DNA from: Polytrichum commune
Lineage: Eukaryota; Streptophyta; Polytrichopsida; Polytrichales; Polytrichaceae
Length of the DNA: 64,000 nt
Reading direction: 5' to 3'
NCBI GenBank assembly: GCA_950295325.1
Contig: OX485809.1
Location: 32,738,001-32,802,000 of the forward strand
Of the stretch, positions 33,445 to 49,600 are shown piece after piece. How positions within the stretch are numbered: position 1 is the first letter of the stretch; each line of letters begins with the position of its first letter. The notes below the pieces were generated by a model that ran no database searches, was not told where the DNA came from, and was given only the letters and a program-made list of their open reading frames with translations. Made by a program: the position numbers and the translations under genes.

Positions 33445-34399
33445 CATCAGAGTTTTACTGTACTGTACTCCGACGTGAATGGGAGCCCGTTCCTCTCTAC
33501 CACGTTCATGTTTGATCAAGCTTCACCATAGGAGTATTTCCTCCTTCTCGGGAGGTGGGCTCCTGTATTTTCGAAAGGATGTAGTTCCTACCGCCTATTG
33601 GGGTAGATGGGCGTATGGGGGGGGGGGCAACTGGATCTAGGAGAGGGGGTCTAGGGGAGGTCTACTGGGTGTTGTTTGTTATCTAACTTTCTTTTGTTTA
33701 GTATTAAGTATATGAGGTATTTGATGGCAATTTGGTGTAGGTGTTTTCATAAGTGTTTTTACCTCGGTTTTGGGATTTTTTAATATTTTTTTAGTTCTTT
33801 AATTGGTTGTTCATGGATAGCCCCTCTAATGCCTGTTGTAATGGTGATGAGCGGATTGACTTGCCAACCGGTTCTTTTGAGTGTGTTTATGAGTGGGTTA
33901 TATTTAACGGCTTTTTCATTGCATGCCTTGTGTGGGAATCTATCATGACAGTAGGTGAATTCAATGAATTGTATGGTATGTGATGGGGTATGTCTTAGGG
34001 GGGGGGGGGTTGGTTATTTGTGGGAGCACCTAATACGCATAGTATGTCTGTCTTAGCCTAGCTAGGCATGTGCATGGCGTGGTGGGGCATGTGCATTGGA
34101 GGAGCCATTGTGGGATTGTGTTATCTTGTGGTCTAGAATTTTGGTGGCATGCATTTATGAGTGTATAGTATCTTGTGTGCTTATTTGATTGAAGTGCGTG
34201 TACTATTTGGTGTATTTCTTTATTATGGTGTGCTATTTGTAATCCCTTTATGTGCGGGTTTGAACATGTAGATAGTAGGTGCGGCCATGTGTCTGTGGTG
34301 TTGTTGGAGCATAATGTACATCTCAGGTTTGGATAAAAGTTAGGCCATAATATATGTTTATGGTGGTTACCCATGTATTGGGCGTATCGGAATTTTAGA
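33445..34399 (-). mobile_element. 3' part of a LINE (non-LTR retrotransposon)
   Basis: On the minus strand this contains the C-terminal part of a LINE reverse-transcriptase protein (34,030-34,399), a 3' UTR and an end reading CTCTGATG next to a T-rich tract. The protein has FRYAQYMGNHHKHILWPN, then a zinc-knuckle-like CTLC…HLLSTC cluster, as seen downstream of the RT domain in many LINEs. The upstream part of the same LINE resumes at 48,224; the 13.8-kb element sits between. A fragment with the same 3' end is at 6,548-6,605. Confidence 0.7.
34030..34399 (-). pseudogene. LINE RT C-terminal domain (zinc-knuckle-like region)
   Basis: Minus-strand frame with Cys-x2-Cys (CTLC) followed 15 residues later by HLLSTC, plus …KGLQIAHHNKEIHQIVHAL, a layout common in plant and algal LINE C-termini. 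It is open up to the junction with the inserted element and lacks its own start because it is the tail of a longer protein. Non-functional as it stands. Confidence 0.65.
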
Positions 34400-34403
34400 G
34401 TTT

Positions 34404-34431
34404 AACACTATATTCGTTAATTGGAGACTTT
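34404..34431 (+). repeat. Left terminal inverted repeat of the 13.8-kb element
   Basis: 28 bases beginning AACACTATATTCGTTAATTG. It differs from the right end at one base (T versus G at position 14). An alternative boundary at CACTA (34,406) would remove two bases from each end. Confidence 0.85.
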
Positions 34432-34444
34432 GGAAAGTCTCCAA
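34421..34444. repeat. Small hairpin at the left end
   Basis: TTGGAGACTT and AAGTCTCCAA are perfect 10-base arms around a 4-base loop. The right end does not form this hairpin. Confidence 0.8.
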
Positions 34445-34854
34445 ATAAATTGGACCCATAGTTTCGGATGCGAATATTGTGAACATAGGGAACATGGGGA
34501 ATATGGGGAACAATGGCAACACAATGTTTAGGAGATCCATATGTGACTACTATATATAGATATCTAAATATAGTAATTATTTAGTTGATAATCAAAACTA
34601 CGCCAACACAATATTCCAATGACAAAAATTCACAATTATTTTGTATTTTCGATTTTGTAGTGAGAAAAATAACGAATCTATAAATAGCCATATGATTTTA
34701 TATCTATAGACTCTTGGATGTGTATCCCAAACATAAAGGTCTTAGCCAATTGTGGGTGAATTGAACGGCACATCCCAAACGCAACAATATTAAAATAATT
34801 TGACAGTGGGTACAAGAAATTGCAAATTAGCATCTACAATATAATTATATAGTT

Positions 34855-35165
34855 TGGACTCCACATCCGTAAAAACAAACATATAAAAAATATTTGATAG
34901 CACATGGGAAGTTGGATTCCACATCCGTAAATCAATACAATCATGCAATATAATTGTAATCTATAACAACTGTAAAAACAAACATATAAAAAACATTTGA
35001 TAGCCATGGGAAGTTGGATTCCACATCCGTAAATCAATACAATCATGCAATATAATTGTAATCTATAACAACCATAAAAACAAACATATAAAAAACATTT
35101 GATAGCGCATGGAAAGTTGGATTCCACATCCATAAATCAATACAATCATGCAATATAATTGTAAT
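34855..35165. repeat. Subterminal tandem repeats, three units of about 102 bp
   Basis: The word 'acaaacatataaaaaa' starts at 34,875, 34,978 and 35,080. Each unit also holds 'gttggattccacatccgtaa' or a close variant, and 'caatcatgcaatataattg'. The array lies between the left end and the 3' end of the transposase gene. The 'ccgta' words recall half of the palindrome found upstream of the gene. Confidence 0.85.
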
Positions 35166-35276
35166 CCATAACATTGCTATAAAATGTGTCTAATATAGTA
35201 TTCGACCCCCATGTCATATATTTCATGAAAAACCAAGACACATTTCAAATAACTTTGGTCCAAACCTACGTCAATA

Positions 35277-38200
35277 TCACTCTCCATCTTCATCCTCAGC
35301 TTCATTTCCATTATCGACATCGTTTTCTGCAGCAGCAATACGTGCCAAGTTGTCTTTGGCAAAATCTATATGTTTTTGGGGGATGGTCATTGTCTCTGAT
35401 TTGGAACCTTTGCGTGGTTTCCAAGCACAAAGTATGGTATTTGTATTTATGCAAATTGGTTCGTATGCTGAGTCCATTGTCCATTTGAAACTTTTTTTTG
35501 TGTCCCACCCTAAATATGTGCGGAGCACATTTTGATCTTTGGTGCTTGGACGGCAATATTCCACCTCAATTTGACGAAAATTTGGGCTAGTTGGAACAAA
35601 ATTTGGTGATGACAATGCTTTTACCAACCAAATCGGTTTAGGGTGCTCCTCATCTCCCGGACGTACGAGGATCATATAACCTTCGTAGCAATCAACAGCC
35701 ACACGAAATGATGGAGCCGGGCAATTACGAGCTGGGCCAACATAATGGTCGTCCGCAGCGAACTCTTCACGGATGTCCCCATTGTCGAAGAACATGGCCT
35801 CAGATTCCACGATTGTCACTCGGCTTTGTGGCCAAAAACCTTGTGTCAAACATGAATGTGTATCGACATCGGGTGCTAGCAATGCTGAGCGAATGCGATC
35901 CCAATACGCAATCAATGGTTCGTGGGTATTCCGAACACGCCTTGTGATGTCTTCCTCGCACAATTCTTTCCAATACTCGATGAATCCGGATATACCTTTG
36001 ATAATTTCAAGTCCATTCCTCATGGGGTTGGGTGTGCAAGGCTTTGGCTCCCCATCAGGTAGCATACATTTGCCCTCTTCGTTTTGGCGCTATACGAGTA
36101 TCCCTTCCTCTAGACCCCAATTCGGGGAAGTGCACAAAACTTTGAATTGCATGGCCGGCAGACCATCATCACGCATATAGAATCGGAATTGTTGAGCCTT
36201 GGTATGGCCCACTAAGCGGTCACCTCCTTTAAGAATGAATGGTTTGATAAACGATTTGAAATCGGATACTTCTTCAATCAAATGCGGGATGACTGGCACA
36301 TTATCCAAATCCATGTATGATTTCATGAGAAGAGGAATTGTCAGAAAATCCTCCTCGTGCAACTTCATACTCCAACGTCCAAATGAAGCGTCAATGTCAT
36401 CATGCGTGTGGCCAACCATAAAAAAAAACACAAACACTTCTTTGAAAATGCCCTTGGCTACGAGCAATGACCAAAAACAAAACACGTATCGACATTTGTT
36501 GTCTTTGGCACAATTGTCCAGTTGCACGTGTAGAATTGGAGGCAAAGGTTTAGCAAGAACGGGTTGTTCAAGTGGTTCTTGCAGTGAAGATAGACAAACT
36601 TCCTTCCCCTCTAGCACAACCTCATAAATCGGTGTTGTTCCACATCCAACAAAAAGAGCGCGGGAGGATGATGTTGGCGGACTTTCAAGATCTCGTAGAA
36701 GTTTTGCAAAAGACCCTACGGTATGATTGGCGTCGTCTGGATAGAAATCCAAGCCATAATGTGCATATTTGACGTCCATATGGCCATGTGCGATCATACC
36801 TGAATTAACACATACAAATGAGAGGTACATTCCAAAATCACCTATGAGAATGAGATTCAATTTTTCCGCAAGCACGCCAAGAAAATGAACAAACACTTAC
36901 GGACGTGCATCCGTAACTCTTAACGATTAGTATGTGGGTGCGCCAAAAAATGTGAAACCCAACGAACCTGTGACAGATATTGGAAGCTTGAAATATCCAT
37001 CTGTAGCCTTTATTTTCCGCGCATAACACGGGCACGCAGTCTTTGCATGGTCCATTTTGTCATGAATGATTGTCAAAACCTCATTCGGCCTCATTATCGA
37101 TAATGCGCGATTCTTGTAGTAGTCTTGACGGTGTGCCTCCTGGTTGTTGACATGCTCAATGTATTTCCGTTGATGTCTATTGTGCGACTCAGTCCCTATT
37201 GGATGTGCATCTCGAAGGCCTTTATATTTCTCACAAGCAGAACACCTAGCAAACTTATCCCCAGTCCTCTTTGTAATGTACTTTGCAAATTGTTGACTCT
37301 TGATCACATTCAATTTTGACAACGAAATCGGCCCACATCCAGCCTTTTCGCCAACTTCATTAACATCCATAAGTATATTCTTCCATTTTGTCCCAGTAGG
37401 CAAAATCATCTAAACAACCTTTTCCCCCGACGGCAAAGTCCGCGTCTTGTGTGACATTGCATCCGCTAATGGCATAATGATGGTTGATAGTGTTGCAGCC
37501 GCTTGGAGTGTTGCCTCCCTGGGCTTTTTTGTGCCAGAGTTGCCATGGAACCGAGAACGCCGTCATTGCATCGAGTAGTTCCGGAACCTATAAAAATCTG
37601 CCTTTGAAACTGCATGTATAATGTACCATGCCTTGCAACATACCTCTACATTTTCCAAGGTCACAACCTTACGACCTTCGGCATCAAAGTGCACGTTGCG
37701 ATGAACTTCAAGTTTCTTTGCAGATCGCATACGAAAGTCCGCAAGCCACATCTCTTGTCTCAAAGATTTGATTTTGTCACGGGAAAATAGTTGGCAACAC
37801 CTCTTTGCACAACAATATTTTGTTGCTACGGACCTAATAGATGTGTCTCCCAATGTTTGATCTCGATGACGTTGCGTGGGTTCACGAGACACGCGAACGG
37901 AATCATACTTACGCCGACCTTTTCTAGGACGCATCGTGGCGAACAAAGTTTTTTGTATTTCCTCAAAACGACGGGCACGATTCCACAAGCTGACACCATC
38001 ATGAAGAACACTTCGCAACGGCCATCGACGAAGAGAAAATCTCCAACCAGGAGGCACTTCCAATGGATGTTTGGAATTCAAAATGCACACCCCAACATCT
38101 TCCTCCCCAAGGGGATTTGCATCAATACAGTTTGTAGGATTTGAGTTCCTACAAACACCATCGGCCACGGGGACGCCACATCCATTGACTAGGACAACAT

Positions 38201-38372
38201 CAAGATCAATCCATTGTTCCCGCGAATAACCCTCACATGGTGGAAGGAATTCATCCTCTGCATTGGCAACACCAATTGTAGTTTCCTGTTCCACGACATC
38301 TTCAAATTTGCTAGCATAGCTTGACGCTTCCGAAGAGAACTCAAATGCACTATCATTGATGTTGGAATCCAT
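35277..38372 (-). pseudogene. DUF7869-type transposase-like gene with three in-frame stops
   Basis: Two exons, 38,372-36,968 and 36,799-35,277, joined by a 168-bp GT-AG intron, give a 975-residue frame. The N-terminal part has a CC-x3-CC cluster (about 187-193) and CSAC (377-380), likely metal-binding. The core carries LDNC…NK (Asp563) and VGHTHDDID (599-605), the conserved acidic motifs of the DUF7869 group of RNase-H-fold, transposase-like proteins. A C-terminal region (…PIWLVKALSSPNF…EVEYCRPS) looks like a BAH/Tudor-type module, and the tail is acidic. Codons 270 (TGA), 321 (TAG) and 705 (TAG) are stops, yet the family-like text HGNSGTKKPREATLQAAATL continues in frame between them. There are no frameshifts. 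I infer a transposase killed by point mutations. The family assignment is from memory of the motifs. Confidence 0.75.
36897..36916. promoter_or_regulatory. Isolated degenerate palindrome in the transposase intron
   Basis: TTACGGACGTGCATCCGTAA differs at two central positions from the palindrome core of the upstream arrays, and lies inside the 168-bp intron. Confidence 0.7.
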
Positions 38373-38511
38373 GGCCACTACAAGTGATCCAAACGAAGAG
38401 TATGTTAAAATATCCCATTCAATAAATGATATGGATAGGCCTAACGCTTATTGTCAATGAAACACAATGTGAACAATAATGGATTTCATGGCCTGAAAAC
38501 AAAGGGTTTAG

Positions 38512-39538
38512 GGTATACGAACGCGCGTTCGTATACCTCCATGTAACAACATTATCAGTGCAAGCACACGCGCATACAAATACATTTATTTGTTCATAGT
38601 CTACGGAAAGGTCCAGACAACGCGCATCTGTAAATCTCTTCGTGATCAAAGAGGTCATTATCATGCGCAAATATTTCCGCAAACTATACAACATAGGAAT
38701 ACGGACGCGCGTCCGAAAACATCCAAATGTCAAAAGCCAGTGTTGTCCAAGACACACAGAGGTTTAGGGACCCAAGAGGTCCAGGTGCCACGGACATGTT
38801 TATCCAAGCATGACGACTATGAGTTTGAAGAGGTTAACATACGCGCTTCCTAGTGTGTTTTATGAATGTCAAAATATTATACTATGAGACATAGGGTGAT
38901 GTAAGTTTAGGGTTTAGGGATCTTATGCCTCCATTGACCGTACAGTCTCAATGTAATATTCTACATGGCACAAAACTATGGCACCAGAGGTTTGCAGGTT
39001 ACGGACGCGCGTCCGTAAACCTATCTGGACCTCAGTACGAGCACAAAGACAATGCTCAAGGCAACAAAGGAACAATGCGCCCGGAGGTTTAAGGTTTATG
39101 GACGCGCGTCCGTAAATTTACAGTCTCGATTGCATACTCTAAATGGAAAGTGGTAATGATCCCAGTTCAGGTGCAATACCGAACTATGTCACCACAAGGT
39201 ACGCAGGTTTGCGGACGCGTGTCCGTAAACCTCAACGTACATGAGTACTAGCTCAAGTACAGTTCTCAGAGCAATAGATAATCAATTAACCAAAAGGTTG
39301 AAGGTTTACGGACGCGCGTCCGTAAATTTACAGTCTCGATTGCATACTCTAAAAGGCAAGTGGTAATGATCCCAGTTCAGGTGCAACACCGAACTATGGC
39401 ACCACAAGGTACGAAGGTTTACGGACGCGCGTCCGTAAACCTCAATGTACATGAGTACTAGATCAAGTACAGTTCTCAGAGCAATAGATAATCAATTAAC
39501 CAAGAGGTTTAAGGTTTACGGACGCGCGTCCGTAAACC
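38512..39538. repeat. Palindrome array 1, upstream of the transposase-like gene
   Basis: Perfect or near-perfect copies of a 26-base palindrome (core TTACGGACGCGCGTCCGTAA) lie at about 38,701, 38,996, 39,093, 39,205, 39,303, 39,416 and 39,513. A variant with GAACGCGCGTTC at 38,512-38,537 is itself a perfect palindrome, and a decayed one is near 38,606. From 39,093 on, the array is a roughly 208-bp tandem repeat with two palindromes per unit, spaced alternately about 98 and 112 bp. The first site is 140 bp upstream of the transposase ATG. It is probably a binding site for an element-encoded protein that acts as repressor and/or in transposition. Confidence 0.85.
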
Positions 39539-42009
39539 TCCGTGATTTGCGGCGCCATAATAGGAACCTTACACCATGAACAATACCTGCCATAAATAAT
39601 AATCAATCACACTACAAGGATCCAGATAGTGCAACCCACATAAAAATTGCCTCCACTAATGGGTTTAGGGCTTGGAATTTAGTGTTTAGGGTATAAAAGG
39701 TCCATTGCAATAGGATCTGTACCTGCACGAAATAAACATCCAGCACACTACAAGGGTCCAAGCAGCGCAACCCACATCTGAGATGCAAAAAGAGTCCCGA
39801 AGTGGGGGGGTGTCCCCTTAAGTATTCATCGTTTTCCCTTGGATCCGTTTTCCAACATAGGATACTCGCCACCAACTACGTCCTATAAATAAAAACCTAA
39901 CATTACTACATTCCGAGTGCCAGCCTTACAATGGAATGTGTATTCATAGTGGACAACATGCATAGACCATGAGTCCACATAATGACAAAGCAAAAGACAT
40001 CTATGTATTTATGGTGGACAACAAAGCAAATTGGCTAATAATATATGAACATTGAACATTGTTGAGGTGTGGTTTATAATATTGAAGTACCTAATATTGA
40101 GAGGTCATTGTAGAATTAGTAGACAGAACATTATAGTATCGTGTAAAAAATAAACCACAACAACAACAATAGTGCATGGAGTATAAAAATACATGTCATT
40201 CAAAATTAAACTAGCATCCATTTTATTGTTTTGCATATAATGTAATGATATTCACTCCAATATCCTGTTATCTCCTCTCATCTTACATTTAATATCGTAA
40301 TTACATTGGCCACCACCCTAACATTTAACCCGTTTAATTTACCCACCTTTACACACCTATACATAATTGTATTAATACATACACAAACTTTGAGGACATC
40401 TAAAGTAGCACATGAAAGTAGCACATCTATTGTCATAGGTACTATGGGTTGCATTAAAATCAATATTGTCAATTTCCTCTCTTAACCTTAGGGCCCCCTT
40501 CAATACATCAACATTTATTTCAAAAAAACTAATACTAGCCTTCTTCATGTACTATACGTGAGAAAAAAACATTTTTTAGTACCCCATGTACATTATCTAT
40601 AGTAATGACTCAAACAATAGCAATTGTTGTTCAAAGTAACATTATAGAGAGAAGGGGAGGGTAGGGTATCCAAATATTATTAAGGCAAGCAATATTAAGT
40701 TGGTGACAGAAGGGGGATACTCTCATTAGTTCATACGTGATACCCTAAACCCTAAACCCTATAACCGCCCAACCATAAACAAACACGAGGACATAGTGCA
40801 AGCACGGTTAACTGAATAACTTCCAATACATGTCAAGGCTTAAGTGGAAGTAATTCAAAACTATATGACTACCTCTAAATTTTGTAAAATAAAACCATAA
40901 ACATTTCAAAAGTGAAGCAAATTTATGGGTAACCTTGCCTTTCATTATTTTAAATCTTTCTTTGGCTGGGTAAAATCTACCCCTTAGAGGCAAGTACAAG
41001 ATTTAGAGGGGACTTGTTATCCTTTCATGTGAGCTAAACATAGCATTATTCAAATCCATAACAATGTTTTGTGGGATTGATAGTATTTTATAAAATATTC
41101 CTTGATATTCCCATATTAAGAGTGAATGTGGGAATATCAAGGAATGTTTTGTGGGATACTATCAATCCCACAAAACAATGTTATGGATATGAATAATGTT
41201 ATGAATGGCAAAATCCACCCTACATTGTTACGATGTCGTTGTTAAATTGTCCAAACATTACATCACATGTATCCATTAATTTTATGTTCTAAACCATATT
41301 TTACCATTGGCAATAGGCCCCTGTACTTTTGATGAAAGGTTTTGAAGATCATATATTGGTATTCTATAATCGAGTACTTAACACAACTCACCACCGAAAC
41401 AAAACTCCAGTATAAACAAGTTGGCTACTACTTATAAGCGATAATACAAGCTCAAGCCTAGGCGTGGATGAATCCCGAATGTTGTGTAATGTACAAGAGG
41501 GATCTAAATTCAACAGATACCCATGCGCTTTGTTTTAATACAAGCTTAGACCTATGTGTGGAGGGATTGAATTAATCTGTAAATGTTGCTTAAGATATTA
41601 TAAGCATATGAATTCAACCCATATCTCGATGTTTGGGTTTTGTTAATTGCGTTTGAACTATGCTTAAATTTAAATATCATGCATAATGATACTCGCATCA
41701 AAGCATCCAAAGTGTCCAACTTCAATGAAGTTTGCAAGTGGATGATAGTATAATGTTTCTCAAAATGCCTTATCTTTTTTATTATTGAGGATATTTAAAT
41801 GTTGACAATGACATAATATACAATGAACAGTTATAACATTCCATAATTCTAAATATTAAGCGATACTACTTACAATATTTAGTGTACTAATAATTTAAAG
41901 CCCGCTTACCTTTATATTACAACAACTCCACAAAGAAAATCTTACAATAATTGAGTTACTCAACCTCACATCCTATAATTTCAATACTTCTACGTTTCCT
42001 AGAATAATG
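39539..42009. other. Spacer inside the 13.8-kb element
   Basis: No conserved protein. A partial direct duplication ('cactacaagg…ccaagcagcgcaacccacat') lies near 39,605 and 39,745. A short telomere-like tract (CCCTAAACCCTAAACCCT) is at 40,743-40,760, and a long foldback at 41,038-41,206. Confidence 0.5.
41038..41206. repeat. Long foldback (hairpin), about 169 bp
   Basis: Arms of roughly 70 bases pair almost throughout: ATCCATAACAATGTTTTGTG on the left is mirrored on the right, as are GGGATTGATAGTAT and ATTCCTTGATATTCCCA. One internal block differs ('tttataaaat' versus 'gttttgtggg'). The loop is about 13 bases. It could be a foldback MITE or a small-RNA precursor. Confidence 0.8.
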
Positions 42010-42145
42010 AATTCTTTCAGAGCTCGTATGAATATTTCACTCATTAATATCAAAAGTGAAGATTCTCATGTTCATGAAATGTTCATATAGGTCCCCGCAA
42101 TTATGTTGACTATTGAACCGTGATGGTTACCATACTTTTAAAAGA
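42010..42145 (+). repeat. R1 dispersed repeat, partial copy inside the 13.8-kb element
   Basis: Contains 'agctcgtatgaatatttcac', 'gttcatgaaatgttcatata' and 'gttgactattgaaccg'. Its presence inside the element shows R1 spread after, or was carried by, the larger unit. Confidence 0.55.
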
Positions 42146-42762
42146 CTATTTTGGTATCATTTAGGTGTCACAATTAAGTTTTATTGAAACAAACACATGA
42201 TTATTTCACTTTATGTAGTGGTAACATTGACAATTAGATTATCAATTAGGGATATAAACTTAAAAAATCTCTATGTATCAATACATGCAATGTTGACAAC
42301 CACTCGCCTCACTCTAATTACCCAAACAACAATCCGGCAGTGAGTAGGCCATTTACTTACCAAAACCGGGGGCACTTGGGTATAGTCCATACCCTTGCAT
42401 TTAATTTTATAAAATTAGTGTAACTTGAAATTTACAATGTAGTCAACATTAATCAAAATTGTTGACATTCTTAGATTAATTATGATTTTGAATTAAGTTG
42501 TCCTGCTATAGCCTTTTACCCAATCTTGGCCAAAGTAATCAGAAAATTCATGAATTGCGTCAATAAGCTAAACCACATATTGACAATTATCACATGAGAA
42601 ATCCCTCCTTTGTAACAATTCAATTCTTCTATGAGGCAAACCCTAAACCATGTAAACGCATGTTATTTTTGCAAATCTATTAACGCAAAAATAATGAACT
42701 ATGTGCTTTTACTTAACTTCATTCTAGACTATTGTTATCTTAATTCTAGTCAATATGTACTA

Positions 42763-43477
42763 ATGATGGCCCATGACACGTTTGGGAACACAAAAAAGTC
42801 GTATTATTGAGGTGTCGTCTTCTCATTAATATTACAAATGGTGTAAAGTTGTCATATTATCGAGGGACAACAAAAACATAAGTAATATGAGCTTTAAATA
42901 CATATACAATGAGTTTAAGTAATATAGATGGTATGAAATAATAACTTATAACTCCAAACAAATATAAATGTTTCAAGACCTCTTGAAATAAGAGTATAAA
43001 GACCTCTAGTGTTGCCTACCCAAGTTAGCAATTGTCATCTTATCTAAATTCCCTACTAACTTTTGAATATTAATAAATTCATTAACACCAAAATAGAAAG
43101 AGTTCTCTAATAAGAAACTAGACAACAATGATGCATGACGTTTAACAACATACTAAGCAGGAGGCCACTCTAATCCTAACCATGCCCATTTTGCACTAGT
43201 AACCCTAATTCTCATTAAGTTCCCAATGGTAAGTGAAGCTCCCAAGTAGTTCCCAAGTGAAAATGAAAGTATTTTAGATGTACATAACGTGGATGAAAGG
43301 AATTTTAACATTAACTACCTCTTTAATATAATGAAACGGAGATTCTTAATGTCACAGTATCAAGTGTCGTAGTCGTATAGAAGAGGGAGTTTGAACTAAA
43401 AAGTTTGGTCGTGCAAAATTGTGTCGTAATATCGAGGGTGTTGTATAAACGAGTGTCGTATCAACGAGGTTGGGCTG
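42763..43477 (-). mobile_element. Non-autonomous pogo/mariner-like TIR element, copy B
   Basis: The reverse complement aligns with 6,924-7,610 along its whole length (shared text includes 'cctcaataatacgac', 'cttatgtttttgttgtccct', 'tagagaactctttc', 'gttatgtacatctaaaat'). The ends are AACCTCGTTGATACGAC-like, with TA on both sides (42,761-42,762; 43,478-43,479). A roughly 18-base stretch near one end is duplicated. Nested inside the 13.8-kb element. Confidence 0.75.
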
Positions 43478-43479
43478 TA

Positions 43480-44834
43480 ATGTCAAATATTTTGTAGCTA
43501 ATAATATGTCTTGGATTGGGCACATGGCCGAGCTTTGTTGTCCCACACTGACATCTAATTTTAGTCTATGGGGAGGCCGGGGAGCCAGGCGAGCAGCTGT
43601 ACAACCCAACCTCGGGGAGTTCACTAGACATGTATATATGTATACACGTGCGTGACAAGGGTATTTATTCAAGGGGTATTTAATTATCCATCCTTAATTT
43701 TTTGTACCGTATTATTATATAATTTGCTGATTTCTTGTTTTTTAAATGACCCTATAATTATTTTTAAATTTGACGAAGCTCTAATTTTAAGCTAGGTATG
43801 TTCATTATAATTATTTGATTTTGCTCCAAAGGGTTTAAGAGCATTCAAAGTACTAAGTCACCAAAATCCAAAGCACAGCAAGGTTTTACATTAAGTGTGT
43901 TCATAAACAGTTTCAAACAACAAAATCAGCCCATGTTCCTCAATCAAGTTACACGCACAATTAAACACAACGGTACTGAGTGTAAAAAAAACAATTAAAA
44001 CACCAACAACAAAGCAAGCAAAAATAGGGTCCATGCAATAATGTAAAAGGGTATAGAGTTAATACTACAACATCTTGCTTGAAGCAGACAGACACAAGAC
44101 CAACCAAAACTCCTCTAATTTATCTTGAGAAATTGTTTCTAGCATTTAAAAATACTAGCAAAATTGTTCATAGCAAATGAAAGATGTCATGTTCATCTTG
44201 CAAACAATACCTAGCTTTTAAGAACACTAGTATATAATCAACAAATAATGCATGCCTTTAATCCTAAACCCAGGAATCCGTCATCCGCCCTCATCAATCT
44301 TTCATCCCATTTTTTCAACTGAATCGACGTAGTTTTCATCCAAAATCTTCCCGCCTCTGAACACAAAGGACACCCTATTTCAAAAAAAACCTAGGATCCT
44401 TAAATCCTACGGTATATTTTTACAAATATGAGTTATTTGTATCAAGCCTATATTATTTATAATACAAATTTTATCATACATACTCACCTATATTACTTCT
44501 AAGAAAATTCTAAGTTTTTCCTCTTGTGAATATAAATTACCCTATATTTTCCTGCACGTTGTTTTCTAATATTATCGCAGTGAACTCCCCGAGAACCCAA
44601 CAGAAAAGTGGTTGTCGCCAAGGCAAGTCATTGTGCAAGCTACAAAATACAGTGTAAACACATTTTACATTTACCCAATGACAAGGTTGGCCTCAAGGAA
44701 CCATTAGTTGAGAGCAACACTCATAAAAAACTTGCATTGTTTGGTGGTAAGGTAAGAGGGTTTTTAAAAAACACTTTTCTATTTGCACCCACTTCTTGTA
44801 GGATATGAAAAAAGTGGAAAACGTCATTAGTGCG
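43480..44834. other. Gene-free spacer inside the 13.8-kb element
   Basis: AT-rich, short frames only, nothing recognised. Confidence 0.4.
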
Positions 44835-45050
44835 ATATGATTAGCAAATCCATTTCGTGCCTATAACAACTTTCTTCATGAAATTCAAAGTTTGTTTAAA
44901 TATCTCATCCATTGTCGAAATAAATATTCTCTCATCAGTTATCAAAAGATGATACAGGTCTACGCAATTATGTTTGACTATTGCGTCTAGATGGTTAACA
45001 ATTTTTGAGCATGTACTCCAATCTCTTCTCAACACACACAAACCACAGTG
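44835..45050 (+). repeat. R1 dispersed repeat, degraded copy
   Basis: 'gcgatatgattagcaaatcc', 'tttaaatatctcatccattg', 'gactattgcgtctagatggt' and 'tgtactccaatctcttctc' follow the R1 order. Confidence 0.6.
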
Positions 45051-45119
45051 GCTAGGCGAATAGGGTTATGCCACGTGTGGTGAACGTGTGGCGTTTGGGC
45101 GCGGGGTGATGCGACGTTT

Positions 45120-46498
45120 GGGGTCGGGGCGATTGGAGGCCCTCGTTCCTCATTAGGGTTTTAGGGTTTTTAGGAGCTCATTTTCGCCCTCCTCGTTTTC
45201 GTTTCTCTTCGCTCTTGTTGTTCTCTTTGTGGTGTTGCTCTTGCTGCTCTATTTGTGTTGTTGCTCTTGCTGGTGTTCATGCTCTCTTCGTTCCTGCTAC
45301 TTTGTGCTCTTGCTGGGATTCACGTGTGGAGAAAACCTCAACCCATTTACATTCTAGAGAGCATACCACACCTTCCAGTGATAGATAGCGATGAGTGTTT
45401 ATCTTCTTTTCTTTCTTGCTTGATCTAAATATTTTAGGTTGGTTTCAAGTTGCTCCTTGTTGAAGCTGGATTACATTAACAGTTGGACTGATTTATTGCA
45501 GGGAATATATTTACTTGTGTATGGTTTCTTTAGGCTACCCCATGATTTGCCAAAAGTTATTTGGCGCTATCCTTTGATGTACATAGGTTTCCACATATTT
45601 GCTCTTCAGGTAAGCTTGTGTTCGCATACTTTTTGTTGCTCTTGCTGCTCTTGCTGATGTTCATGCTGTGATGAACATGCTGGTCTTTTTGTTGCTTTTG
45701 CTGGTCTTGCTGGTGTAGAATGACATTGCAATTGCATTCTCCTTTGTCATTCTCATTCTCCTTTGTCATTCTCACTTTGTCATTCTCATTGTTCAATTTC
45801 ATTGTTTTGGGGATCTTGAAGGCCTTGTTCATTTCTCTTCCTATTGAAATCTTTGCCTCTTCCAAGATCTAAGAAATCACATGTTTTGTTTTGAAAGGAC
45901 ACTTCAATGTGATGTCCATGTTCAATCCAGTTTAATGTTTGTAGTAGGGTTTTTTTTCTGGTTTTGATGCAATTTAGGAATACCATTGCATTACTCGAGG
46001 TTTCTAACCTCAATTATATTGTTGATTTGCAGTCGGTTTTACCTGCAGCACGAGCAGGAGTTGTAGTTTAGGAGCAGGAGCAAACATTCTACAAAGGTAA
46101 CATTTCTATAACATTGCAATTGCATTTTGTATGATTGCACTCTTTGGTTGTTGTGGTTTAGGGCTTAAGGTTAGCTTCAAAGCATGTGAGCTCCAACAAC
46201 CTTGAGAGCAAGTGAGATTCCACATTCAAGCAATTCTGAATTTGTTTGGTACTTTGCATATCGCCAGACTCTAAGAATCATTTAGTTTTGGACATGTCAG
46301 TGTTCTGAAAGGGTATAATTTTCTCAATTTTGCAGTGCAGAGGTTGCTATTGCAGTGCTGTGCCATATTGCATTCTTTGGAGAGCAATACCATATTAGAA
46401 GACAAGGTAAAATCCCGAAAAATGCGGGTCATTAATGAAAATAACCTATTCCGCAAATGCTCCAGAATGTTTAATTTACAGTAACCAATAAACCCCTT
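45120..46498 (+). promoter_or_regulatory. Promoter and leader-like region of the accessory gene
   Basis: Around 45,150-45,300 a telo-box-like TTAGGGTTTTAGGGTTTTTA is followed by a pyrimidine-rich leader with CTCTTGCTG repeats, typical of plant 5' UTRs. Good donors (CAGGTAAGCTTG near 45,608; AAAGGTAACATT near 46,095) suggest non-coding leader exons. The acceptor would be TTTGCAG directly before the ATG at 47,327. All of this is splice-site reading without transcripts. Confidence 0.35.
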
Positions 46499-47271
46499 AA
46501 AGTTTACGGACGCGCGTCCGTAAACTTTATGGACCATGTGTGGGTGAGAAAGAAGACCATCACACAATATATATATGCGGAGTTTACAGACGCGCGTTCG
46601 TAAACTTTACGGACCTTGTGTGGGTGAGAAAGAAAAACCTCACACAATATATATGCGGAGTTTACGGACGCGCGTCCGTAACTTCTACAGAATTGTAAAT
46701 AGAATAAATTTTTCCTGAATAAAATATTTGCAAAGTTTACGGACACGCGTCCGTAAACTTACAAAAATAAGTAATAATCCACTGAATAATATATGTGAGT
46801 AGTTTACGGACGCACGTCCGTAACATCAAAAGAATTGTAAGTAGCATAAACTTTTCCTGAATAAAATATTTGAAAAGTTTACGGACGCGCGTCCGTAAAC
46901 TAGGCAAAATAAGTAATAATCCACTGAATAATATATGTCGAGGTTACGGACGCGCGTCCGTAACATGTAGAGAATAGTCAATAGTATAAAATGATTGCAA
47001 ACTTTACAGATTCACGTTCCTAAACTAGGCATATATGACAGAACTAATTCTGTATAATATATGTGCAGAGTTTACGGACGCACGTCCGTAAACTAGACAT
47101 ATATAAGTAAGCACATCATTTTCTATCATATATGTACAAAGGTCACGGACGCGCATATAATGTACGCGATTGAGCATATAATGTACGCGATTTGCGTATT
47201 CACTATAACATTCTTTAAAAGATATAATTGATAGAATATGCAAAACTTTACGAACGCGCGTTCGTAAAGTT
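46499..47271. repeat. Palindrome array 2, upstream of the accessory ORF
   Basis: The same core palindrome as array 1 (TTACGGACGCGCGTCCGTAA) recurs about every 60-80 bp: at about 46,499 (30-base perfect palindrome), 46,581, 46,659, 46,735, 46,801, 46,876, 46,943 and 47,069, with decayed copies near 47,000 and 47,141. A GAACGCGCGTTC variant at 47,244-47,271 is a 28-base perfect palindrome. The sequence between palindromes differs from array 1, so the shared element is the palindrome itself. The last site is 55 bp before the ATG. Confidence 0.85.
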
Positions 47272-47326
47272 AGATCTACATCCATTGACCATAATTCGAA
47301 CATGTTGTGTATGTGACCATTTGCAG

Positions 47327-48157
47327 ATGGCATCTAAAAATAGACACGCAATTGAGATGTTCGCAGAGGCTCTCATTCCTCCGCTGCCAGAAGATATCAA
47401 AGACATCAGCCCCAACGACCACTACAAGCCACAAGATGAAATTGTAGATAATTGGACAGTACTGGTAGAGAAGGACGAGAAAGAAATATTTGTGCTTAGA
47501 TTTGCATATCAAATTAAGTCGGACATAGATGAAACCGAGAAGTGGATAAAGCTTAAATCCTGGACAGTAGAGTGTGCAGTGGCCCAAGGGGATTATGTAG
47601 TTATTGACCTTGAGAAGAAAGAAAATCGGGTCACATTCATTTTGCATGAATCCTACCATCCCTTCAACAAAAATGAGTGTGAAAATGCTAGTACAGATGC
47701 GGCTTGCTTCAATCTCCAGACGAAGTTCCAAGGCTATGCATGCAATGCACCTTGGACGGGTAAGCGGCTTGGACGACTCTTGAACAATGTTACAAGAGTG
47801 AATGGGGCGTTGCTAGAGGCCAGAAAGGGGAAGGAGAAGAAGAAACAAGTCGTTTCTGAACGACCCAAACGTGTGCCCAAACCTGTGCCAGAAACCTCAA
47901 GGCCCTCGCAGAGTGGTGCATCAAGAGGGAGCAGACAGACGAGTAAACGCTCTTACTCGCAGATGGAGTCATCTGGGCTAACAGAGGGTCCGGATGTCAG
48001 CTTCACACTAACTGTCGCTCCTCTCCTAAAAAAGGGTCAACGCCCTGACGCCGAACTCTCCACAAAGATCTTCCAAGAATTTGATGAGAAGACAAAGGGT
48101 TGTTTCCAAAATTGGGAACATAGCATATTTTTAGTGTTTTCCTTCCTACAAATGTGA
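47327..48157 (+). CDS. Accessory protein of the 13.8-kb element, unknown function
   Basis: 276 residues from the ATG that directly follows a splice-acceptor-like TTTGCAG. The frame is open further upstream but without an ATG. Residues 1-150 are mixed and acidic (…NWTVLVEKDEKEIFVLRFAYQ…), and could be a small folded domain. From about 165 on the protein is basic and serine-rich (RKGKEKKKQVVSERPKRVPKPV), looking disordered and nuclear. No enzyme motif is seen. It ends 60 bp from the right terminal repeat. Its place, and the palindrome array it shares with the transposase gene, make a DNA-binding or regulatory role like that of TnpA or MURB plausible, but this is inference. Unlike the transposase it has no lesion. 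Confidence 0.6.
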   Translation: MASKNRHAIEMFAEALIPPLPEDIKDISPNDHYKPQDEIVDNWTVLVEKDEKEIFVLRFAYQIKSDIDETEKWIKLKSWTVECAVAQGDYVVIDLEKKENRVTFILHESYHPFNKNECENASTDAACFNLQTKFQGYACNAPWTGKRLGRLLNNVTRVNGALLEARKGKEKKKQVVSERPKRVPKPVPETSRPSQSGASRGSRQTSKRSYSQMESSGLTEGPDVSFTLTVAPLLKKGQRPDAELSTKIFQEFDEKTKGCFQNWEHSIFLVFSFLQM

Positions 48158-48191
48158 AAGCCACATCCTTAAATAGTCTCAAAATCAACAA

Positions 48192-48219
48192 AAAGTCTCC
48201 AATTACCGAATATAGTGTT
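48192..48219 (-). repeat. Right terminal inverted repeat of the 13.8-kb element
   Basis: Read on the minus strand it starts AACACTATATTCGGTAATTG and matches the left end at 27 of 28 positions. Confidence 0.85.
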
Positions 48220-48223
48220 GTTT

Positions 48224-49064
48224 GTGTGATTTGGGCACATGTGGTCCCGGAGTTTTTCTAAAATTGGTTTATGATGGTTGTTGTTTGGGTTTTGTTTTTT
48301 TGGCTTTTTTTGGGGGAGGATTGTGACATATCTTTGGGTTAGCCATAAAACTTCGGTGGGGTCGTGTATGGGTATTGTTGAGTGGGTTTGTGGTGTTTGT
48401 TTGATGAGTGTCTGTAGGAGGTGGGGGGGGGGTCCCTTTGTGTTGTTGTGGTTCATTGTTTTGAAGTCTTTGTAATATGGTGAGGCATCTTGGGTCAAGA
48501 TGTTTGGAGAGTTGTTCATTGCGTTATTGGGGTATCGGGTTGATAGCTATTATGAAGGCATATATTTGGTAGTGTGGGGGTATCTGGATAGAAGGAGACT
48601 ATGTTTGTGAAGGTGTGGTAGGGTTGGATGCTGGTTGGTTGGGGTGGGTTGAGCCAAATATGGGGCAAAAAGTTCTTCTAGGTGTTGGTATTGGGGCTTT
48701 AGGTTTAAGGTGTTTGCTATGAAGTATTGTTTTTGTCGCTTTGAGTAGCTTTTGGGAGGTTGTTGAGGGTTTGTGTGGTTGGGCCAAGGTTGGGTTGTAT
48801 GTCACCGCCAAGTAGTATGAGAGTTTGGAGGTCCGTGGTGTATGAGGTGGCTTTGTTCGTGTGCTTGGGATGTGGGCGTTTTATCGTGTAAAAAGTGATT
48901 GAGGCGGTGCTTGTGTGATGTATGTGGCCTTTGCCTATATGATATATTTGTGGCGGAAGTGGGGGGTAAAGTAATAGGGGTGTTTGTGGGGGTAGGAGGG
49001 GGGAGGGAAGTTTATCCGTGTTGTGGGGGTTCAGTGTTGCATTTTGTGTGAGGGTTGGTTCCAC
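48224..49064 (-). pseudogene. LINE ORF2 remnant, continuation of the LINE at 33,445
   Basis: The minus strand holds an ORF2 N-terminus with LILLGGDIQPNLGP (48,800-48,845), the GD(I/V)xxNPGP-type text that precedes the endonuclease in many LINEs. After a loss of the endonuclease and RT core comes …ILEKLRDHMCPNHTN at the junction with the 13.8-kb element. The protein text resumes on the other side as TLKFRYAQYMGN. G-rich plus-strand frames here are shadows. Confidence 0.6.
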
Positions 49065-49110
49065 GCATTTTTGGTTTTTACTTAAGGGGTAATTTAGTGT
49101 GAGACGTTTG

Positions 49111-49112
<2 letters not shown>

Positions 49113-49158
<46 letters not shown>

Positions 49159-49165
49159 TTTTTTT
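49113..49165. repeat. (GT)n microsatellite followed by a 24-base T run
   Basis: About 14 GT units then a pure T tract; on the minus strand this is poly(A) followed by (AC)n. It lies between two copies of the same ORF2 N-terminal sequence, so the A run may be the 3' tail of a separate LINE insertion. Confidence 0.85.
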
Positions 49166-49600
49166 GTATTCTTTTGGGAGGTTATGAGAGATTTGTGTGA
49201 GTGGTCCGGGGTTGGGTTGTATATCACTGCTTAGGAGTATGAGTGCTTGGGGGTTGGTGATGTATGTGGTTATTTTATGTATGTTCAGGTGTCTATGGTG
49301 GGGGTGCTTTATTATGTAGAAGGTGATGAGGGTTATAGTGGTTTGATGTGCATGTATGGGTATTTGGTGTTGTCTTTGTGGTTGGTGTGGATGGTGGGGT
49401 AGTATGGGTATGTATGGTGTTAGAATATGTGTGGGGGATGCAATGGTGATCTTAATATGTTTGTATGTTGTGGGATGGATGTTGGGTGTGTTGTTTGTGG
49501 GGTTTTGGTGTAAGTTTGGTTATGGGGGGTGTGGGGGGAGTGATGGAGGGGGTGTGTTTGGTTGATGGGGGGGGGGGGGGGGGAGGTAGTTTAGCCACAT
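49166..49600 (-). mobile_element. Second copy of the LINE ORF2 N-terminal region
   Basis: The text 'ttttgggaggtt…tttgtgtg…ggttgggttgtat' (49,170-49,235) repeats that at 48,745-48,800 with divergence, and the similarity continues to about 49,330. A G homopolymer lies at 49,567-49,583. It is heavily decayed. Confidence 0.5.

Follow-up and report, generated by a model that had tools for sequence, protein, structure and literature searches.

Sola1-1_Ec32 of the alga Ectocarpus is a giant Sola1 transposon of 21.5 kb, in which a ParB and methyltransferase gene lies opposite the transposase, and the accessible part of its report proposes that the accessory protein methylates the element's own copies (PMC12477816). 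By its layout it is the closest known system to the subject of this study, a transposon at positions 34404–48219 of a 64,000-nucleotide stretch (hereafter the window) of the genome of the moss Polytrichum commune (assembly GCA_950295325.1, contig OX485809.1, positions 32,738,001 to 32,802,000). We consider it reasonably probable that the window element is a dead copy, shortened by a deletion, from a lineage of giant, multi-gene cut-and-paste transposons, probably of Sola1 type, in which an accessory protein, here called ORF-A (from open reading frame, ORF), would read a tag on the element's own DNA. Like Sola1-1_Ec32, these elements are giant and carry the accessory gene on the strand opposite the transposase; unlike it, they have a land-plant host, no canonical methyltransferase catalytic motif, a NIF-type phosphatase and private palindromes.

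The Sola superfamily is described, in the portion of the source available, as having transposases with an aspartate triad (DDD), target-site duplications (TSDs) of 4 bp, variable ends and sizes that sometimes exceed 15 kb, and as present in Physcomitrella (PMC10741241), from which Sola1 has also been tabulated (PMC9033089). The 4-bp TSD, the variable ends, sizes above 15 kb and the moss host are shared by the Polytrichum lineage, and its DDD-like motifs would fit as well; Sola elements are mostly of 2–9 kb and the accessible text of the two sources mentions no such gene set (PMC10741241, PMC9033089). The best functional analogy would be VANC of Arabidopsis: according to the part of the report at hand, VANC21 binds to a short sequence found outside the coding regions (in introns and upstream) of the VANDAL family it comes from, and a change of protein goes with a change of motif (PMC5735166). 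Here, too, a short, family-specific repeated motif lies upstream of genes and in introns, changes between families and is accompanied by an accessory protein; unlike here, the VANC motif YAGTATTAY is not palindromic, and binding by the accessory protein is in our case a predicted one. VANDAL elements are Mutator-like. Finally, EnSpm/CACTA elements have CACTA ends and a 3-bp TSD (PMC10741241), and giant ones of 16–20 kb with 4–5 ORFs appear in the accessible text on the red alga Chondrus (PMC6431247, citing Kojima 2013); the elements described here are likewise large and multi-ORF, but have neither CACTA termini nor a 3-bp TSD.

The element and its relatives

The ends of the window element are as follows.

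34400–34403, no strand: left TSD copy, GTTT (from sequence and empty sites)
34404–34431, plus strand: left terminal inverted repeat (TIR; from the repeat pair in the window and genome-wide recurrence)
48192–48219, minus strand: right TIR (from the inverted repeat pair with the left end)
48220–48223, no strand: right TSD copy, GTTT (from sequence and empty sites)

The two TIRs are identical at 27 of 28 positions, and the left flank is a dispersed repeat, with 40 scored copies (the window's own included) among 479 candidates. The five best-scoring other copies, which were all those fetched, each cross the junction with a single GTTT and no gap, at 85–89% identity to the window on the left and 58–67% on the right. 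Because these five copies run through with one GTTT, the ends are exact and both flanks belong to one repeat. This upholds the original prediction, made from the letters of the stretch, of 28-base inverted repeats with one mismatch, a flanking GTTT duplication, the boundaries of the element and a single repeat on both sides. The same prediction called that repeat a long interspersed nuclear element (LINE), a part which found no support: 11 flanking frames gave no Pfam match, and the reverse-transcriptase-like motif [YF][AVMG]DD is absent from 8.4 kb of left and 9.8 kb of right flank, both negatives being weak because the flanking frames are broken. Frames of the flanking repeat at 48717–49519 (minus strand) contain GDIQPNLGP and SDIQPNPGP, which we take to resemble 2A self-cleaving peptides; 2A-type peptides occur in some LINEs, and Pfam gives no support for a LINE.

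Full relatives of the window element are 15.6–25.0 kb long, with a DUF7869 gene pointing outward one way, and ORF-A followed by a NIF/FCP1-type phosphatase gene pointing outward the other. Four families were read whole or nearly whole: alpha, which is that of the window element (with E27, E69 and E55), F540 together with its near relative F1060 (15.9 and 15.6 kb), F502 (16.6 kb) and F692 (25.0 kb). Order and orientation of the transposase, the ORF-A exons and the phosphatase are identical in all four. Compared with F540, F502 and F692, respectively, alpha is 86, 66 and 48% identical in the transposase part, 61, 41 and 34% in the phosphatase, 40, 37 and 23% in ORF-A exon 1 and 54, 36 and 28% in exon 2; for exon 3 the identity is 31% to F540 and 22% to F502 (blastp without composition correction; weakest E value 4e-6 for transposase, phosphatase and exons 1 and 2). 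The end AACACTATATTCG is common to alpha, F540 and F502, and the terminal 13 bases are kept in these three families out of four. In F692 the end on the transposase side, ATGGGGATATTAACTAAAATGAGAC, agrees with that of F502 at 16 of 25 positions in an ungapped alignment. The F502 element is nested in a retroelement that by eye is Ty3/gypsy-like, with frames continuing on both sides (loci L044, L036 and L037).

In comparison with three full alpha relatives (17.3 and 17.6 kb, and a third of about 20.1 kb whose right end was not retrieved), the window copy is short of some 5.9 kb of family sequence at about 48098. Its genes and the junction are given below.

35277–38372, minus strand: DUF7869 transposase gene of two exons, towards the left end (gene model by comparison with open copies)
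36090–36896, minus strand: between-stops stretch with the DUF7869 domain (Pfam E 2.4e-40; QLDNC and GHTHDDID motifs; the part above 36800 is presumed intron)
36800–36967, minus strand: putative transposase intron (limits by eye; a degenerate palindrome near 36898–36915)
47327–48098, plus strand: truncated first exon of ORF-A, ending ahead of the DGQH motif (comparison with full relatives)
48098–48099, no strand: deletion junction, where the remainder of ORF-A is missing, as is the NIF phosphatase gene (2–3 nt of microhomology by eye)

The transposase frame contains three in-frame stops (36090–36092, 37410–37412 and 37563–37565), and the F692 transposase reads through the position of the putative intron without one. 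The element had been taken for complete, which the missing 5.9 kb and the stops contradict, while the proposed transposase-like gene is borne out by its DUF7869 domain. The second ORF does point outward, as had been noted; given the deletion, it is a truncated piece, the opening part of exon 1 in a longer multi-exon gene, with the phosphatase gene lost. Judged by its sequence the window copy is dead, but this does not extend to the group.

With up to three mismatches, the window TIR pattern matched 1392 times forward and 1380 times reverse in 407.8 Mb, and the same pattern read backwards matched 0 times in either direction. Thirteen elements were compared: two whole ones, the window copy and ten inward-facing TIR pairs taken among the first 100 matches listed. 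A 4-bp TSD flanks 11 of them, whereas 0 of 156 unpaired combinations have one and none appears after shifts of 1–3 bases; with four further whole elements, flanked by TAGT, CAAA, TCAT and TTAC, the total is 15 of 17. The terminal repeats recur in pairs in the genome. All but 15 of the 143 DUF7869 copies scored (of 1409 candidates) have no stop in the matched stretch, and groups of them have equal bit scores; in the phosphatase search, 23 of 147 scored copies (of 1235 candidates) share one identical score. Three F692 copies are 99.7% identical over 1.5–2.0 kb, with the same endpoint and different flanks, and the F692 end sequence has 50 forward and 47 reverse matches in the genome, many of them paired about 25 kb apart. 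With open matched stretches and near-identical copies, the group is therefore not dead by the look of its sequences, which points to a lineage that moved or amplified recently in its land-plant host. A WRKY search of the genome gave 34 exon matches, as in a land plant with few WRKY genes.

Palindromic sites and the proposed mechanism

Two arrays of palindromes lie in the window element.

38513–39537, no strand: left array of palindromes, upstream of the transposase gene (repeat families D1 and D2)
46502–47269, no strand: right array of palindromes, upstream of the accessory gene (repeat families D1 and D2)

The two repeat families have 15 and 17 copies, in register, and the exact core GGACGCGCGTCC is present nine times; 20 Markov sequences contain a mean of 1.3 palindromes of at least 14 bases of any kind. 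In the remaining 50.2 kb of the window the motifs are found 0 times at up to three substitutions. Genome-wide, the exact 20-mer palindrome of alpha has 1026 copies (control 0), and 49 of the first 50 listed sites, all on contig 1, are inside or no more than about 12 kb away from a match to the TIR, DUF7869 or NIF, as read by eye against incomplete match lists. The main part of the prediction is retained: a DNA transposon that has TIRs, is built around a DUF7869 gene, carries a second, outward-pointing gene and palindromes private to it, and has entered a single repeat.

Six elements have 13–21 exact palindromes of at least 14 bases each (Markov means 0.7–1.4, maximum 5). The commonest 12-base core is GGACGCGCGTCC in alpha (9–13 copies), GAACGCGCGTTC in F1060 and F540 (11 and 4 copies; six of the 13 exact palindromes of F540 are AT repeats) and GGTCGATCGACC in F502 (11 copies), and the palindrome of F692, CACGGGTGATCACCCGTG, is mostly imperfect. 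When up to three substitutions are allowed, eight elements contain 17–39 palindromes of their own motif. The F502 and F692 motifs occur 0 times in all other elements, the alpha and F540 motifs, one base per half-site apart, detect each other and occur 0 times in F502 and F692, and none is found in Markov sequences of E27 or F502 (10 of each). The palindromes lie in the two arrays upstream of the outward genes and in the gap that separates ORF-A from the phosphatase; the ORF-A introns contain further ones, singly or in small groups. Only 10 of 138 fall in coding sequence, which makes up 32–50% of the length of the five elements counted (E69 0/24 palindromes with 43% coding, F1060 2/24 with 50%, F540 2/28 with 50%, F502 4/39 with 48%, F692 2/23 with 32%; the shares rest on approximate exon limits). 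The positions are thus conserved, and the motif that occupies them is exchanged from family to family.

In the mechanism that we propose, the DUF7869 protein would cut at the TIRs with a 4-bp stagger. ORF-A, with a DGQH motif as in ParB/DndB proteins, a methyltransferase-like domain and an acidic tail, would bind the palindromes, both those of the upstream arrays and the intronic ones, and by analogy with VANC this binding would mark the DNA of the element as its own, so that it stays expressed or unsilenced by the host. The NIF/FCP1-like phosphatase may work with ORF-A at the element promoters, which is the weakest step. ORF-A and the sites change jointly between families while the transposase stays. 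It is possible, and we offer it tentatively, that a prokaryotic-type ParB-methyltransferase became a non-catalytic reader of self DNA that recognises palindromes at set positions (the two promoters and the ORF-A introns), and that reader and sites were swapped jointly at least two times under an unchanged transposase and layout, so that families can coexist without cross-reading.

The palindromes could instead be bound by the transposase itself, or serve host factors as promoter elements, with ORF-A having some other role. The arrays do lie at both outward promoters, and CACTA and Mutator elements have repeated sites close to their termini; the parallel that had been drawn with these two groups holds as an analogy, but membership fails on the 4-bp TSD and on a family without CAC at its ends. 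However, most palindromes are internal, introns included, with only a few additional ones near the ends in F692. The alpha and F502 transposases have wholly different palindromes at the identity of 66%, with ORF-A diverging far more, and host factors would leave the family-by-family replacement of sites unexplained. We therefore find this explanation rather unlikely.

Transposase and classification

DUF7869 is a domain of unknown function in Pfam. The alpha transposase has about 1,000 residues (DUF7869 at Pfam E 2.6e-41), F1060 has an open frame of 1,060 residues that includes a presumed in-frame intron, and DUF7869 was the only Pfam match in the transposase pieces scanned. The alignment conserves D[KG]MD, Q.DN...[ED]NK and GHTH[ED]D[IV]D; the aspartates of the first and last are kept in all rows covering them, and that of Q.DN in all but one copy. 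The order of strands and helices in a low-confidence model (mean predicted local distance difference test, pLDDT, 50.8) fits an RNase H fold, and from motifs and model we infer that the DUF7869 protein is a DDD transposase. In a VIA-align comparison nothing stands out (row 3 is an Argonaute, residues 403–661, Z 5.0, within noise), sequence profiles against the PDB gave nothing under E 0.3 for either transposase or ORF-A, and viral contigs yielded no relative of the alpha transposase exon or ORF-A exon 2 (77 pattern matches, with 0 confirmed). A second, more distant DUF7869 lineage (loci L041, L042 and L043) shares 22–37% identity with the F692 transposase row; the TIR common to the other elements was not found in the 4.5–5 kb read.

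Going by TSD, presumed triad type, size and layout, the lineage is most probably of Sola1 type; the 4-bp TSD of Sola1 was found in the 15 of 17 elements above. The original prediction knew of no described plant family with this layout; giant Sola1 transposons share part of it in the accessible account (PMC12477816). DUF7869 may also represent a separate transposase superfamily whose common ground with Sola1 is limited to the 4-bp TSD and an accessory gene. No literature naming DUF7869 was found, in a search mostly outside subscription journals, and a TET/JBP accessory gene is reported, in the portion of the source available, to have moved between transposon superfamilies (PMC12730594). On the other side, the accessible accounts of Sola agree with these elements in TSD, triad type, size, presence in moss and layout of the accessory gene, and we regard a separate superfamily as doubtful.

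Accessory protein and phosphatase

ORF-A has at least three exons, with limits drawn from sequence, and runs in the opposite direction to the transposase. Exon 1 carries a [DN]GQH[ST] motif in 5/5 elements checked, exon 2 and the start of exon 3 form a methyltransferase-like domain, and exon 3 has an acidic tail with the look of a coiled coil (by eye from the residues). No profile match above the cut-off was obtained for exon 3. The likeness of exons 2 and 3 to beta-class methyltransferase motifs was noted prior to any fold search. In Foldseek, ranks 1–14 for the exon 2 model are all N6-adenine methyltransferases (best E 3.9e-3, probability 0.99), and in VIA-align 47 of the 50 rows listed are methyltransferases (best Z 5.8, root-mean-square deviation 4.9, 151 aligned, residues 246–466). 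Against 50 YhdJ-type methyltransferase sequences, the ORF-A profile peaks exactly on motif I, with scores of 19.5 and 21.6 that do not clearly exceed the controls given below. It is likely, from the model, that the exon 2 domain has a methyltransferase fold.

Whether ORF-A would also be an active DNA methyltransferase, one that binds the palindromes and adds N6-adenine or N4-cytosine methyl groups to copies of its own element, is another matter. Such activity is proposed for Sola1-1_Ec32 in the accessible part of its report (PMC12477816), and is in line with the methyltransferase-like fold, seen on a poor model, with the Asp retained in DFRxIPG and with F-x-G-[ST] at the place of motif I in most rows. 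But the catalytic motif [DNS]PP[YFWH] is absent from every exon frame of five elements, DFR[GAN]IPG stands at its expected place in four of the five, and the last glycine of motif I is replaced by Lys. Because the canonical catalytic motif is missing, activity is judged unlikely from these residues, and the explanation as a whole improbable. That the lineage belongs to CACTA/EnSpm or the CMC group is highly improbable: ends AACACTA...TAGTGTT in three families and the size and ORF number of the red-algal giants (in the part of PMC6431247 available) recall them, but the 4-bp TSD places the ends at AACACTA, with AA ahead of CACTA, F692 with its homologous genes starts ATGGGGATATT (ends ATGGGG), and Pfam finds only DUF7869 in the transposase pieces scanned.

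The phosphatase gene lies 3' of ORF-A (Pfam PF03031, E 4e-12 in alpha and 2e-14 in F502). Its alignment profile finds 2hhl, a CTD small phosphatase-like protein, at E 9.7e-4; a single sequence against the PDB found none. Catalysis by NIF/FCP1-type phosphatases needs the motif DxDx(T/V), which was not seen in the five phosphatases examined: the first motif is DLNGVL in the four aligned rows and DVNEIL in F692. The activity is uncertain because the second Asp is Asn. Some relatives carry additional open frames beyond the phosphatase.

Several observations weigh against self-recognition by a methyltransferase-like ORF-A in a lineage of DDD transposons. Two of the 17 TIR pairs have no TSD; these may be ends of separate insertions or old copies. 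For ORF-A exon 3, homology is not clear when F692 is compared with alpha or F540, and exons 1 and 2 had no Pfam, NCBIfam or PHROG match above the cut-off (best YEATS, E 0.017, sub-threshold). The exon 2 model has low confidence (mean pLDDT 43.9), no Foldseek match at or below 0.001 and no VIA-align row at Z 8, under which a match may be a mere common arrangement. The YhdJ-type scores are not significant, with 15.1 and 19.4 in the reversed control, 18.1–19.0 in three unrelated alignments and 9–12.5 in shuffles. To these are added the poor transposase model, with which Foldseek found nothing (best E 0.1), and the ten palindromes in coding sequence.

As far as searched, the land-plant host for the accessory gene, the lack of the canonical catalytic motif, the phosphatase and the palindromes with site turnover at fixed places are new; the literature search, again mostly outside subscription journals, found no NIF phosphatase in a TIR transposon. 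If the proposed self-recognition is true, this would be an apparently recently active land-plant transposon that carries its own sequence-specific self-recognition system, and its natural swaps of site and reader would be open to comparison, as with VANC in Arabidopsis, with other parts used. It would also offer a likely role for DUF7869 proteins and a possible origin of NIF-phosphatase and 'hypothetical' genes in such genomes.

Minor features of the window copy

In the transposase region of the window copy, C-to-T or G-to-A changes affect 5.7% of CG, 7.7% of CHG and 3.5% of CHH sites, and those private to E27 in the same region 3.2, 1.8 and 0.6%, respectively. With few sites, this is only suggestive of methylation-type decay. 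Rfam gave no match in window positions 34000–48600. Just inside the left end, at 34903–35209, there are three tandem copies of a 102-base unit, the other two being 98% and 75% identical to the first. A hairpin within the element at 41039–41203, with 79-base arms that are 89% complementary and a 7-base spacer, looks like a small nested insertion of a foldback element or miniature inverted-repeat transposable element.

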